DNA from: a virus
Length of the DNA: 28,656 nt
IMG/VR virus record: IMGVR_UViG_3300005613_000325
Location: 1 to 28,656 of that record
Direction: 5' to 3' (one strand)
A program made the translations under genes and the position numbers. This document shows, in pieces, positions 2,946-19,003 of this stretch. A model generated the notes under the pieces. The model had not been told where the DNA came from, ran no database searches, and saw only the letters and a list, made by a program, of their open reading frames with translations. Numbering within the stretch: the stretch's first letter is position 1; each line of letters begins with the position of its first letter.

Positions 2946-3018
2946 GCTATCCTAGCTCAACTGGCAGAGCAGGCGGCTGTTAACCGCCAGGTTGCAGGTT
3001 CGAGTCCTGCGGGCAGTG
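2946..3018 (+). tRNA. tRNA-Asn (anticodon GTT)
   Basis: Cloverleaf with D stem GCTC/GAGC, anticodon stem GGCGG/CCGCC closing loop CTGTTAA, T stem GCAGG/CCTGC with loop TTCGAGT, and discriminator G as is usual for tRNA-Asn. The acceptor GCTATCC/GGGCAGT contains one A-C mismatch and two wobble pairs, so it is weaker than a typical bacterial gene. No CCA is encoded. Confidence 0.8.
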
Positions 3019-6189: not shown

Positions 6190-8658
6190 ATGGCGGACCC
6201 GCTACTACCACTGTCTGGGGCACCAAGGTCCTCACTAGTCAAGGCTGAGAAGCTCTTGCAGCTTCGTAAGCAGAGGTATGAATTTGCTACTAAGTACCAC
6301 CACAGCACACGTGGCGAACCACTAGATTTTAAAAATTACCCGCACATCAAGGCACTGTACAATTCGGTTGCGGCAGAAATAGCAGTACAAGGCTCTACCC
6401 AATGTTTCAAAGCCCAGCCATTGACCTCGAAGGTCCACACACCAGGCGGTTGGAAGTTGATGGGGGACTTGAAGGTAGGCGACTTGGCGAGTACCCCAGA
6501 TGGGGGCCAGGCACCAATTACGCAGGTACAGCCCCAGGGCAAGAAGCAGATATACAAGATAGTATTATCAGACGGCAGAGAGGTAGAGGCTTGTGCCGAC
6601 CACCTATGGCAGGTGCGGAGAAAGAATGATGACGGGACGTTAGGACCAGAGGGCATCTTGACGACTAGCGAGATTTCCTGTGGTATGAGCACAAAGGATC
6701 ACTCCTTTGTCCTGCCCACAAATAGGCCAATTCAAAAGCCAGAACGAGACCTACCCGTTGACCCTTATCAGGCCGGGGTAAACACAGCACATAAAGTAGC
6801 TTTAGTGCATACCGAGATACCTGAGGACTACTTGGAAGGGGCACTATGGCAGCGGTTGGCCTTTCTCCAAGGTATTTTAGACACTAGCGGGATAGTTAAA
6901 GATGAAATCAGCTTATATTCACGTTGCGAGACCTGGATAAAGCAAGTGCAGCATTTAGTTCTATCTCTCGGCGGGACTACAACGCTCACTAAGGCAGGCA
7001 ATTATAGGCTTGATATTTATTATGAGGCCCCACAAGCACTATTCCAGAGTTATAAGAAGATTGCGGCAAGTGAGACATTAAAGATAGCTCCTTGCGGGCC
7101 GACAATTAAATCCATTAGTGCGGCAGGAATAGAAGAAGCACAATGTATAGTAATAGACCACCCAGACCACTTATACCTCACAGACGGCTACGTAGTAACG
7201 CACAATAGTGAATGGCTAGTAATCGACCACCTCGCTGCTGCTTCAATTGGGCTTCAGATATTCTTCGTACTCCCCAAGTACGATATGATGAAGAACTACG
7301 TCCAGAACCGTGTCGATAGGCCGATTGGTGCGGTAAGAGAATATAAACAATTCTCAAAAGACGGCTCATTTGATAATGTTAATATGAAAGCCTTTGGGAA
7401 AGGTGTTATCAAATATGTAGGGAGTAACGTCGTTGCTGATATGCGGGAATACCCGGCGGACTGCTTATATGTTGAAGAAGTAGACCAATGTAACACGGAT
7501 AACCTGAAGTTGGCGGTTGACCGCCTTCAAGCTAGTCCGTTTAAATTCAAGAGACGGCTTGGAAACCCCTCTCATGTTGGTAGTGGCATTAATGCGGCTT
7601 TTCAAGAGTCCAGCCAGCAAGCCTGGCACACTCCCTGCGATAAATGCGGAGAATACTCGGAGTTGGACTGGTTCACTACTGTTGTTGAGTCTGTTAAGGA
7701 CGCAGACGGGTCTATACTTGAGTATAGACTTCGTGACAGGGAGTGGGAGCCTGGTATTAGGCGAGACATCAGGCTAGTTTGCCCAAAGTGCGGTGAGGGG
7801 ACACTCCAACGAGGAGACCAATCAGGTAAGTGGGTAGCGAAGAAGCAGAGTGTAATTGAGGGATTTCATATCTCGCAGCTTTGCTCGGAGCTTAACTCCG
7901 TCAGTAGTGTGTGGCAGGCTTTCCAAAAAGGTCTTAGTGACCCAGTTGAGCTTCAGCACTTTTACAACTCCTACCTTGGATTGCCTTTTACGGCAGAGGG
8001 CAACAAGGTAACAGAATCTACTTTGGAGCGGGCCACTGGCGACTATGACCTGGTAATTAAGCCCGACTGTGCCCACATACAGGGGGACGGGCACTACGGC
8101 CCATGTTCGATGGGTGTGGACGTTGGAGGCAACTTAGATGTGAAGATTTCATATGTACCCGGTGATGGTACGCGGCAGATGGTTTACATAGGTAAGGTAA
8201 AACGCTTAGCGACATTATATGAGCTAATAGAACGCTACAACGTAGAGAAATGTGTTATTGACTCTATGCCCGAAACCAAGCTGGTACAGGACTTCCAGGA
8301 CGAGGCGATGTGTGATGTGTGGGCTTGCCGGTATAGCGGGGAGGGCTCCGACAGAAGAATGCGGTACGATGTTAATGAGCGGATTGTTACAGTAGACCGG
8401 ACAGAGACACTAGACCGCTCATTCTCGGACTTGAAGACAAAGAAGACAATCCTCCCTAAAAACTTCCGCAGTATTTTCCAAGGTGAATTCACGAGGGAGA
8501 TGACAGGTCCAGTTCGGGGCGTAGTGGAGGACGACAAAGGAAACAAGAAATATGAGTGGTCAAAATGTAAGGACCACCAAAGACACGCAGACGGATACGA
8601 TATGCTTGCGGCAAAGATGATGAGCGATTCGATGGTAACAGATATTTATATTGACTAG
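6190..8658 (+). CDS. terL: Terminase large subunit (GpA-type) containing an intein
   Basis: An 822-residue precursor, predicted to become a 557-residue packaging ATPase/nuclease after removing a 265-residue intein. The Walker A motif is split: GSTQCFK (68-74) and S340 join as G-x4-F-K-S, with Phe in place of the second Gly. Walker B is LYVEEVDQ (426-433). Two zinc CxxC pairs (C483/C486 and C531/C534) are typical of the GpA family. The nuclease domain begins at MGVDVGGN (D644), with further acidic residues at VIDSMPE (D691) and HADGYD (800-804). It starts three nucleotides after terS. Together the two proteins drive headful or site-specific DNA packaging into the procapsid. Confidence 0.9.
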   Translation: MADPLLPLSGAPRSSLVKAEKLLQLRKQRYEFATKYHHSTRGEPLDFKNYPHIKALYNSVAAEIAVQGSTQCFKAQPLTSKVHTPGGWKLMGDLKVGDLASTPDGGQAPITQVQPQGKKQIYKIVLSDGREVEACADHLWQVRRKNDDGTLGPEGILTTSEISCGMSTKDHSFVLPTNRPIQKPERDLPVDPYQAGVNTAHKVALVHTEIPEDYLEGALWQRLAFLQGILDTSGIVKDEISLYSRCETWIKQVQHLVLSLGGTTTLTKAGNYRLDIYYEAPQALFQSYKKIAASETLKIAPCGPTIKSISAAGIEEAQCIVIDHPDHLYLTDGYVVTHNSEWLVIDHLAAASIGLQIFFVLPKYDMMKNYVQNRVDRPIGAVREYKQFSKDGSFDNVNMKAFGKGVIKYVGSNVVADMREYPADCLYVEEVDQCNTDNLKLAVDRLQASPFKFKRRLGNPSHVGSGINAAFQESSQQAWHTPCDKCGEYSELDWFTTVVESVKDADGSILEYRLRDREWEPGIRRDIRLVCPKCGEGTLQRGDQSGKWVAKKQSVIEGFHISQLCSELNSVSSVWQAFQKGLSDPVELQHFYNSYLGLPFTAEGNKVTESTLERATGDYDLVIKPDCAHIQGDGHYGPCSMGVDVGGNLDVKISYVPGDGTRQMVYIGKVKRLATLYELIERYNVEKCVIDSMPETKLVQDFQDEAMCDVWACRYSGEGSDRRMRYDVNERIVTVDRTETLDRSFSDLKTKKTILPKNFRSIFQGEFTREMTGPVRGVVEDDKGNKKYEWSKCKDHQRHADGYDMLAAKMMSDSMVTDIYID
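6412..7206 (+). mobile_element. Class 3 intein in the terL Walker A motif
   Basis: Residues 75-339 of the precursor. The C-terminal end is VVTHN|S, a classic intein junction. There is no Cys or Ser at the N-terminal junction that restores the protein; instead the triad that defines class 3 inteins can be seen: Trp140 at the block B position (GREVEACADHLW, 12th residue), Cys319 opening block F (CIVIDHPDHLYL) and Thr337 before HN. An internal domain with FLQGILDTSGIV (226-237) resembles a LAGLIDADG endonuclease motif, but with Ser for the usual second Asp and no clear second motif, so homing activity is probably lost. Class 3 inteins are known mostly from phage genes. Confidence 0.85.
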
Positions 8659-10394: not shown

Positions 10395-11069
10395 ATGAAT
10401 ATTCTTTTTCTAAGTAATGGTTGTGTAGAGACTGCGGCAATTCAAGCCCTCTTTGACAGGGGTGACGAAGCAATCGTTATTGACGATTTTGACGAATCTA
10501 CTATACCCCTACCGGATATGGATGTAGCTGTTTGTCTGGGGGTAATGCCAGAAACAGTAGATAAGCTAGACTGTCCTATCGTGACTATGGCTATTCCCCC
10601 GCTTTACGGGGGCGATGTACACGGAGTAGTGCGAGACATTTGCGAATATGTACTGGATGACCCAGAATACACACCACGCAGTAATAAGATTGTTAGACTA
10701 GTTCCGATGAAGGATGTAGTTAGTAATCTTATCCGGCTAATTGACGGCGAGCCCCAAACAGACTTGCCGGAATCTCCTATCTATCTTAGTAAATTAACGG
10801 CCTTGGTCCATCGTTTTCGTGCCGCGAGCGACCTCCCCGGTCCTGTGCAGACGACCAGTAACTTTGAGCAGGCAATTCTCGACACCTTCAACATCACACG
10901 TGCGGCAAGGGGAGAAGGAGGAGACATTGATTTACAAGAAGCTATTGCTAAGGTAGCCACTCCTGAAGAGGTCTCCGAAGAGATTCACGAGGACTTTGAC
11001 GATGACTTCGACGAGGATTTCGAGGATGAAGCTGAGTATGACGAGTCTTATGGGGGGTTTTACGAGTGA
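10395..11069 (+). CDS. Hypothetical protein with highly acidic C terminus
   Basis: A 224-residue protein. The N-terminal part (MNILFLSNGCVETAAIQALFDRGDEAIVIDDFDE) looks like a Rossmann-type alternation of strands and helices, with valine-rich strands in VAVCLGVMP and CPIVTMAIPPLY. The C-terminal 30 residues are almost all acidic or aromatic (DDDFDEDFEDEAEYDES), a pattern seen in DNA mimics and in proteins that bind basic partners. Directly coupled to the upstream kinase-like gene (GAGGAGAGCTAA before ATG). No function recognised. Confidence 0.55.
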   Translation: MNILFLSNGCVETAAIQALFDRGDEAIVIDDFDESTIPLPDMDVAVCLGVMPETVDKLDCPIVTMAIPPLYGGDVHGVVRDICEYVLDDPEYTPRSNKIVRLVPMKDVVSNLIRLIDGEPQTDLPESPIYLSKLTALVHRFRAASDLPGPVQTTSNFEQAILDTFNITRAARGEGGDIDLQEAIAKVATPEEVSEEIHEDFDDDFDEDFEDEAEYDESYGGFYE

Positions 11070-11082
11070 AATTGATTGCACA
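11066..11082. promoter_or_regulatory. Near-palindromic operator candidate, copy 3
   Basis: GTGAAATTGATTGCACA is the exact reverse complement of the first 17 bases of the copies at 675 and 3093. It covers the stop of the acidic-protein gene and ends 6 nt before the ATG of the methyltransferase. Confidence 0.55.
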
Positions 11083-11088
11083 CTTCGC

Positions 11089-11853
11089 ATGGACTTGGGA
11101 GATTGCCTTGGCATTATGGCAACCCTCCCAGATAACTCAGTTGACCTGGTTTTGTGTGACTTACCTTACGGAACTACTAAGTGCAAGTGGGACGTTTTAA
11201 TTCCTTTTGAGCCGATGTGGGAGCAGATTTGGCGAATAGGTAAGCCCGACGTAGCCGTGTGCTTATTTGGGGCAGAGCCTTTTAGTAGTTCATTGAGAAT
11301 GTCGCAACTGAAGTGGTTTAAGTATGACTGGGTGTGGGATAAGGTTACTGCCCGTGGGCATTTAGTCGCCAAGAAGAGGCCAATGGCCCAGCACGAAACT
11401 GTCTCCGTTTTCTACAAGAAAGCTGGCAGGTATACCCCGCAGATGGTTGACCGTCCTGTGGACAAGCAGGAAGTCCATAGAGCAACAGATAAAGGGTTCA
11501 AGAGGAGTGAGATTGTTGGAGGCAACAACGACGGCCCTAAGTCCGAGATGGTACTAAGGAAAACATGGTATCCCAAGACTATTCAGACCTTCTCAAATGC
11601 GGCATTGCCCAATAGGTTACACCCAACCCAAAAACCTGTCCCCTTACTTGAGTATTTGATTAAGACTTACACAAAAGAAAAAGAGACTGTGTTAGACTTC
11701 ACCGCAGGTAGCTTTTCAACCGGGGTTGCGGCAATGAATTTAAGTCGGAGTTTTATTGGAATCGAATCAGACAAAGATTATTTTAATGCGGGCAAGAAAA
11801 GAATAAGCGAAGAGAGTAAAAACAAACAAATACACTTAACTATAAATGAGTAA
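11089..11853 (+). CDS. DNA methyltransferase (N6-adenine/N4-cytosine type, beta order)
   Basis: A 254-residue enzyme with the catalytic motif DLPYGTTKCKWD near residue 22 and the AdoMet motif DFTAGSFSTGVAAMNL near residue 205. Motif IV before motif I defines the beta class. It transfers a methyl group from AdoMet to an exocyclic amine in DNA. The N terminus MDLGDCLGIMATLPDNSVDLVL is typical of the family and supports this ATG, though upstream in-frame ATGs exist (11038, 11050) and no Shine-Dalgarno sequence is seen. No restriction gene is adjacent, so it is probably a solitary phage methylase protecting against host restriction. The target sequence is unknown. Confidence 0.85.
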   Translation: MDLGDCLGIMATLPDNSVDLVLCDLPYGTTKCKWDVLIPFEPMWEQIWRIGKPDVAVCLFGAEPFSSSLRMSQLKWFKYDWVWDKVTARGHLVAKKRPMAQHETVSVFYKKAGRYTPQMVDRPVDKQEVHRATDKGFKRSEIVGGNNDGPKSEMVLRKTWYPKTIQTFSNAALPNRLHPTQKPVPLLEYLIKTYTKEKETVLDFTAGSFSTGVAAMNLSRSFIGIESDKDYFNAGKKRISEESKNKQIHLTINE

Positions 11854-17860: not shown

Positions 17861-19003
17861 ATGAGTAGTTCCCAAGTACCTGGCATTGTCAGTTTGACCG
17901 GCAGTGAACCTGTCGAAAACCTCCCCACCCATTGCGAAGGATTAAATATCTTAGTCGCAATGGGCGGGGGACTTGGGGACGCTCTTATTGCTGTAGGCAG
18001 TGTAGCGAAGTATTTTGATGGCGTAGCGATGGTAGACGCGGCAGTGATGAAACACCAATCACCCGTAATAAAACAACTCAAAGGGGTACGAAACGTTTAC
18101 CAAACACAGGCGGTAAACAACCCCGCATTCCGACGTGAGTACGATGTTTACTTAAACTTCGGCAGGGTATTTAATAACCCTAAAAACCTCCATCAGGAGG
18201 ATTATTATAAGTTAGTAGGAAATAAAGCAGGCATTGGGGTAGATGTTGGCGAGCTAGAAGGTTTTGACGTAGAACAAGGAAACGAGATATTCCTCCACCC
18301 TAGCGCGAGTAACCCCAACAGGCGGTGGACCGAGGAGAAATGGGAAGAGCTGGCGTTTGAGCTTCGAGATAGAGGCTATGCAGTAACCTTCCTTGGCACG
18401 AAAGATGAGTTTGGCTTCTCGGCAGAGGGTATTTTGAAGTTGAGTGACGTAGACGAAGACCTGCTATATCAGGTAGCTTGTTTATCGAAGGCGAAATACT
18501 TCATTGGTAATGATTCAGGCTTTGCCCACTGTGCGGGATTATTGGGAGTGCCAGGAGCAGTCCTATTTTTCGCCACACGGGCCCAAGACGTTATTTGCCG
18601 TTACTCCTCACTCACGGGCATAGAAGTATACGATAAGTTAGGTGTGCAAGCGAATTCATCCCTCAATCCAAGAGACCCAATTTGTTTGAAGTGCATAGAG
18701 AGCATGACGCCTGGGGACGTGTTAGAGGCAACTGGGTTTGACACACCAGTAGTTGAAGAGGGTTCAAGAGAGAAGTGTCCAGAGATTAGATTGCCAATCA
18801 ATCTCCTCAACGAAGATAAGTGCCAAGGATTGTATAATCATTTGTTTAAATATTTTGACCTCTCCGGCAAGGAAGATTCAAACATAACACTAGATGTACA
18901 AAGTAGTAAGATTGCATACGTAACAGTTGGTGATAAAGTAAACCACCTCTCGCTCGACTGTTTTGAGAACATTCCAAGGGCCCTTAGAGAAATGCGGAAT
19001 TAA
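17861..19003 (+). CDS. Family 9 glycosyltransferase (heptosyltransferase-like)
   Basis: A 380-residue protein with the GT9 pattern. NILVAMGGGLGDALIAVGSV (29-48) is the N-terminal glycine-rich loop. FLHPSASNPNRRWTEEKWEELA (144-165) and FIGNDSGFAHCAGLLGVPGAVLF (214-236) are the sugar-nucleotide binding motifs of this family. GT9 enzymes transfer heptose or related sugars in bacterial cell-surface synthesis. The gene lies between the major capsid and connector genes, on the same strand and tightly packed. A role in decorating capsid or tail proteins, or altering the host surface, is inferred. The C terminus (about residues 290-380) is unassigned. Confidence 0.85.
   Translation: MSSSQVPGIVSLTGSEPVENLPTHCEGLNILVAMGGGLGDALIAVGSVAKYFDGVAMVDAAVMKHQSPVIKQLKGVRNVYQTQAVNNPAFRREYDVYLNFGRVFNNPKNLHQEDYYKLVGNKAGIGVDVGELEGFDVEQGNEIFLHPSASNPNRRWTEEKWEELAFELRDRGYAVTFLGTKDEFGFSAEGILKLSDVDEDLLYQVACLSKAKYFIGNDSGFAHCAGLLGVPGAVLFFATRAQDVICRYSSLTGIEVYDKLGVQANSSLNPRDPICLKCIESMTPGDVLEATGFDTPVVEEGSREKCPEIRLPINLLNEDKCQGLYNHLFKYFDLSGKEDSNITLDVQSSKIAYVTVGDKVNHLSLDCFENIPRALREMRN

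Follow-up and report, generated by a model that had tools for sequence, protein, structure and literature searches.

The gene at 6190 to 8658 of the window (the whole stretch of DNA analyzed, a 28.7-kb virus record) encodes a terminase large subunit interrupted within its ATP-binding loop, which raises the question of what kind of insert occupies this site, where exactly it begins and ends, and what its position means for the packaging motor. The best explanation, to which we assign a probability of about 95%, is that the Walker A loop of this phage terminase, a member of the GpA family, harbors a class 3 intein of the LAGLIDADG type, at a late immobile stage and with splicing predicted. The features of the gene were assigned as follows.

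6190 to 8658, + strand: gene for a GpA-family terminase large subunit with an intein, precursor of 822 amino acids, 557 after predicted splicing (translation, domain matches)
6190 to 6411, + strand: N-extein, M1 to K74, whose last residues, GSTQCFK, open the Walker A loop (alignment to nine distinct uninterrupted relatives)
6412 to 7206, + strand: class 3 intein, A75 to N339, 265 amino acids (empty-site relatives, alignments, fold model)
6412 to 6627, + strand: first half of the Hint (splicing) domain, containing His138 and Trp140 of block B (alignment; 72% identical to L099)
6607 to 6609, + strand: codon of Trp140, the W of WCT (alignment)
6739 to 7095, + strand: degenerate LAGLIDADG endonuclease region, motif 1 and the following segment deleted, motif 2 GILDTSG (PF14528 match, alignment with full copies, relaxed constraint)
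7102 to 7206, + strand: second half of the Hint domain, with blocks F and G, ending in ...CIVIDHPDHLYLTDGYVVTHN (alignment)
7144 to 7146, + strand: codon of Cys319, at position 4 of block F, the predicted first nucleophile (same residue in all 37 aligned copies)
7198 to 7206, + strand: codons of Thr337, His338 and Asn339, block G (invariant in 37 of 37)
7207 to 8655, + strand: C-extein, S340 to D822, remainder of the ATPase domain plus the nuclease domain (GpA_ATPase, GpA_nuclease and phrog_675 matches)

The exteins, which amount to 557 residues once the 265 of the intein are subtracted from the 822 of the precursor, matched PF05876 (GpA_ATPase, E 7e-17), PF20454 (GpA_nuclease, E 1e-7) and the phrog_675 terminase family (E 4e-69). 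Thus, the open reading frame at 6190 to 8658 carries both the ATPase and the nuclease domains that identify a GpA-family large terminase, and both were matched by all nine intein-free relatives. The same protein, with 100% identity and an intact frame, is encoded by a second contig, L098. A search of PDB sequences with the terminase profile gave no match, and no cellular relatives of the terminase appeared in two genome-contig scans, which relied on short conserved peptide matches. The fold model of the terminase was of moderate quality (pLDDT 71) and resembled the HK97 and T4 gp17 terminases as a general fold only; it was left out of the judgement of P-loop geometry.

To locate the junction, viral contigs were scanned with the C-extein, which yielded 24 loci of the same terminase subfamily. 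Fourteen of them (nine distinct) had no insert and ran without a gap through the join, reading ...MGSVQSYKSEW..., ...LQGSVQCFKSEW..., ...LQGSVQSFKSEW..., ...MGSVQSMKSEW..., ...LQGSVQSLKSEW... and ...MGGTQIFKSEW.... The spliced window sequence, ...VQGSTQCFK-SEW..., agreed residue for residue with these uninterrupted relatives, and for this reason the join was set at K74|S340, so that the insert separates the Lys of Walker A from the next Ser. This is the junction proposed in the first-pass annotation, which had named a different junction in relatives lacking the insertion as the finding that would overturn it; such relatives were examined, and the junction held. The placement of the insert in the ATP-binding loop was likewise upheld by the nine distinct uninterrupted relatives, and these, together with the codon positions, gave the same limits as that annotation, A75 beginning at base 6412 and N339 ending at base 7206.

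A Cys lies three residues upstream of the assigned intein start, and this residue, Cys72, could in principle be the start and first nucleophile of a class 1 intein. Such a start would take C-F-K from the extein, whereas all the empty relatives have those residues; moreover, Ser occupies the position of Cys72 in carriers L099, L112, L114 and L115, and the block A alignment begins at Ala75 in 37 copies. Cys72 was rejected as the intein start on the evidence of the empty-site relatives, as it rightly had been in the earlier annotation, and we give a class 1 intein at this site practically no weight.

Lys and the next Ser are invariant in the subfamily, while the usual last Gly of Walker A is replaced by F, Y, M or L. 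From this conservation and the G-x4-x-K-S pattern, a catalytic role of K74 would be expected. Distant GpA terminases, from Listeria P100, Bacillus Mater, Caulobacter Seuss, Pseudomonas PMBT3 and Acinetobacter fJoAci01, have the loop KxSQxG(L/M/V)(S/T)E; the insertion point falls in the same column, and where the loop was covered the residue aligned with K74 was Leu or Met instead of Lys. Taken together, such distant terminases were too diverse for their alignment to serve in scanning.

The insert carries the full class 3 signature. W140, C319 and T337 (block B:12, F:4 and G:5) make up the WCT triplet, the C-terminal residue is Asn339, and the +1 residue is S340. Intein position 1 is Ala75, so there is no Cys, Ser or Thr nucleophile at the N-terminal junction. 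In an end-to-end alignment of 37 inteins, in which block A could be aligned from Ala75 onward, the Cys of block F and the terminal VTHN were invariant and the block B Trp was present in at least 90%; judged from this alignment, conservation across the 37 intein relatives is far above chance. A phmmer search against PDB matched the class 3 intein of Mycobacterium smegmatis DnaB (6bs8) at both ends, and the inteins of phages SL2, PhiPA3, TaPaz, Eowyn, vB_PQ1 and VCO139 aligned from first to last residue. The AlphaFold model of the intein (mean pLDDT, 95.6) showed the intein (Hint) fold, and a search with it retrieved 42 PDB chains at an E value of ≤0.001, the class 3 inteins 6bs8, 6rix and 6riy among them; PI-SceI was another Foldseek match. 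Class 3 inteins were reportedly characterized by Tori and Perler. The assignment to this class, made from the letters alone in the first-pass annotation, was supported.

The chemistry of class 3 inteins, in which a Cys attack is followed by transfer to the +1 residue and Asn cyclization, is known (PMC7891396, PMC7664689). By analogy, Cys319 of the window intein would attack the peptide bond between K74 and A75 and hand the acyl group on to Ser340, and Asn339 would cyclize, so that the exteins would be joined as ...GSTQCFK-SEW... and the ATP-binding loop restored. The unspliced precursor would probably be unable to hydrolyze ATP, and a dependence of packaging on the predicted splicing would follow from the position of the insertion.

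Six other distinct carriers in the subfamily have an intein at the same site, and they differ widely in size. The full copies in L099, L112 and L115 (356, 364 and 366 amino acids, respectively) have both endonuclease motifs, LGDG plus LDTDG or MDTDG. The decayed copy in L110 (276 amino acids) is without motif 1 and has YDTYC in place of motif 2, and the mini-inteins of L108 and L114 consist of 141 amino acids each. WCT is kept in all six, and the first residue is Ala or Gly. The window intein has lost motif 1, and its motif 2 is LDTSG in place of LDTDG, with the catalytic Asp missing; it lacks the pair of motifs with catalytic acidic residues expected of a mobile LAGLIDADG endonuclease.

The decay is also visible in the divergence of the two parts. 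Compared with the nearest full relative, L099, the window intein is 71% identical in the splicing domain (72% and 69% in its two halves) and 31% identical in the endonuclease (Fisher P = 2.5e-9, to be taken as a guide only, as aligned residues are not independent events). The corresponding identities were 0.55 and 0.34 with L112 and 0.45 and 0.34 with L115, the last contrast pointing the same way without reaching significance (P = 0.13, with the same reservation). L110 showed the same pattern of higher identity in the splicing domain than in the endonuclease, and three pairs of intact copies had no such gap (splicing/endonuclease identities of 0.52/0.52, 0.48/0.45 and 0.51/0.51). The earlier description of a degraded, immobile endonuclease thus stood as regards the loss of homing function, for which relaxed constraint speaks, and had to be corrected in its detail: motif 1 is deleted, and what is kept is a broken motif 2. 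The GC content of the intein equals that of the extein in each carrier and therefore gives no pointer to recent arrival.

With its endonuclease part decaying, the insert might be a splicing-dead relic, retained in a terminase that is inactive. However, all the splicing residues are intact in the window intein, the halves of its Hint domain are conserved to the extent given above, and the frame is open over 822 amino acids in both contigs. Furthermore, the mini copies at the same site are under purifying selection: the intein dN/dS between L108 and L114 is 0.06, a figure that covers these two minis only, the window's own synonymous sites being saturated, and splicing in the minis therefore appears to be under strong constraint without the endonuclease. 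A dead relic is accordingly very improbable. The window copy is better read as a late, immobile stage of a formerly homing intein, since presence and absence are patchy among relatives and full, decayed and mini forms occur side by side. The intein would have persisted because its exact removal from a P-loop is difficult, and an inexact one would ruin the packaging motor.

The same intein could have been retained for a different reason, namely, splicing as a regulated switch, through oxidation, metal or timing, that delays the motor until late infection. Any splicing delay at a P-loop position would hold back the ATPase, and the class 3 P-loop intein DnaBi1 is inhibited by H2O2 via its catalytic Cys, which is blocked in a disulfide with Cys48 (PMC6195587). 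The window has Cys72 at position −3 plus several Cys residues within the intein. Nevertheless, the internal partner is absent, since Ile occupies the position aligned with Cys48, and a redox switch by analogy with DnaBi1 was rejected on that ground. Cys72 itself is also found in the intein-free relatives L109 and L119 and is replaced by Ser in four other carriers, which argues that it was not selected for regulation, and close relatives live without the intein altogether. The timing or stress switch raised in the first-pass annotation was not borne out by these residues; a switch of some kind is possible but without support, and we regard retention on its account as unlikely. Similarly, it seems quite unlikely that the intein was kept, after loss of the endonuclease, as a posttranslational brake with the terminase active only once splicing was allowed. 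Retention by the difficulty of precise loss is the reading followed here.

In the extein tree, most forks of which were weak, the presence and absence of the intein were scattered, with 5 changes compared to 5.5 in shuffles. In the intein tree, the seven copies formed one group (support, 97/97), which also took in a single long-branch row. A single site-specific intein lineage, repeatedly gained and lost, would fit both trees. The deletion that made the mini-intein is identical in L108 and L114, with 85 to 93% DNA identity there. By intein and deletion, L108 thus belongs with L114, but its partner in the extein tree is L110, which has a longer intein. The local identity around the intein in L108, L110 and L114 suggests recombination, and the endonuclease-free mini-intein may have been moved by ordinary recombination.

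The preference for this kind of site extends beyond the subfamily. Among 63 distinct viral-contig relatives of the wider family, the intein followed a Lys in 60 and preceded Thr or Ser in all 63, and a recognizable P-loop lay immediately upstream of the insertion in 56; the hosts include helicase-like as well as terminase-like P-loop ATPases. Judged by these insertion sites, the wider intein family is a P-loop specialist. In L026 and L079 the intein follows Gly (MLPG|PQPL and AGDG|PQPL), so the Lys preference is not absolute. In L070 and L071, the intein (start 3001) directly precedes SGKT (...SSIGNQ|...VTHN|SGKT), and this copy appears to have moved a few residues along the Walker loop.

Compared with the known class 3 DnaB inteins (MsmDnaBi1, 6bs8; MchDnaB1, 6rix and 6riy), the window intein shares WCT, the absence of an N-terminal nucleophile, the Hint fold, the remnant of a lost endonuclease and, with DnaBi1, the P-loop insertion. 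It differs from them in its GpA-family terminase host, in the half LAGLIDADG domain that is left and in having no equivalent of Cys48 of DnaBi1. The closest named relatives, with 36 to 40% intein identity, are in SNF2-type helicases of jumbo phages (Pseudomonas SL2 and PhiPA3; vB_PQ1) and in the TaPaz and Eowyn terminases. These inteins have the same K|xQPL start and a VTHN|T end, and those of SL2, Eowyn and PQ1 are, like the window's, without the first LAGLIDADG motif, but their host proteins, P-loop ATPases with the canonical GK|T, are unrelated. The nearest copies of all are those of L099, L112, L115, L110, L114 and L108, IMG/VR contigs that share the window's subfamily, site and intein lineage in full, differently decayed or mini forms.

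Insertion in the P-loop between Lys and Thr is the classic site and the commonest kind in mycobacteriophage terminases (PMC5050341). The TerL1-a inteins described there likewise interrupt the P-loop of a terminase, after the invariant Lys and before the next nucleophilic residue, but their hosts are TerL1 (terminase_1) proteins with Thr at +1, whereas the window has a GpA host with Ser at +1. The inteins reported in that study are confined to terminase_1, terminase_6 and a terminase-like family (PMC5050341), and in the open-licence literature we found no earlier report of an intein in a GpA-family terminase. The window case is a further class 3 P-loop intein, of a kind already known, in a host protein for which no earlier report was found.

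With this case, the P-loop hotspot also takes in a terminase of the GpA family that lacks the usual last glycine of Walker A. At one site in one phage gene family, empty, full (endonuclease intact), two separate partly deleted and mini forms bring the predicted stages of the homing cycle together, a compact natural series for measuring the speed at which splicing and endonuclease functions separate.

The neighborhood of the gene yielded some minor observations. Two tRNA genes, for tRNA-Ile (anticodon TAT, 2738 to 2811) and tRNA-Asn (GTT, 2946 to 3018), lie upstream of the packaging genes, and an N6/N4 DNA methyltransferase gene (10996 to 11853) lies between the terminase and portal genes. A glycosyltransferase family 9 (heptosyltransferase-like) gene at 17861 to 19003 lies inside the head/connector block, where it adjoins predicted virion protein and head-tail adaptor genes.
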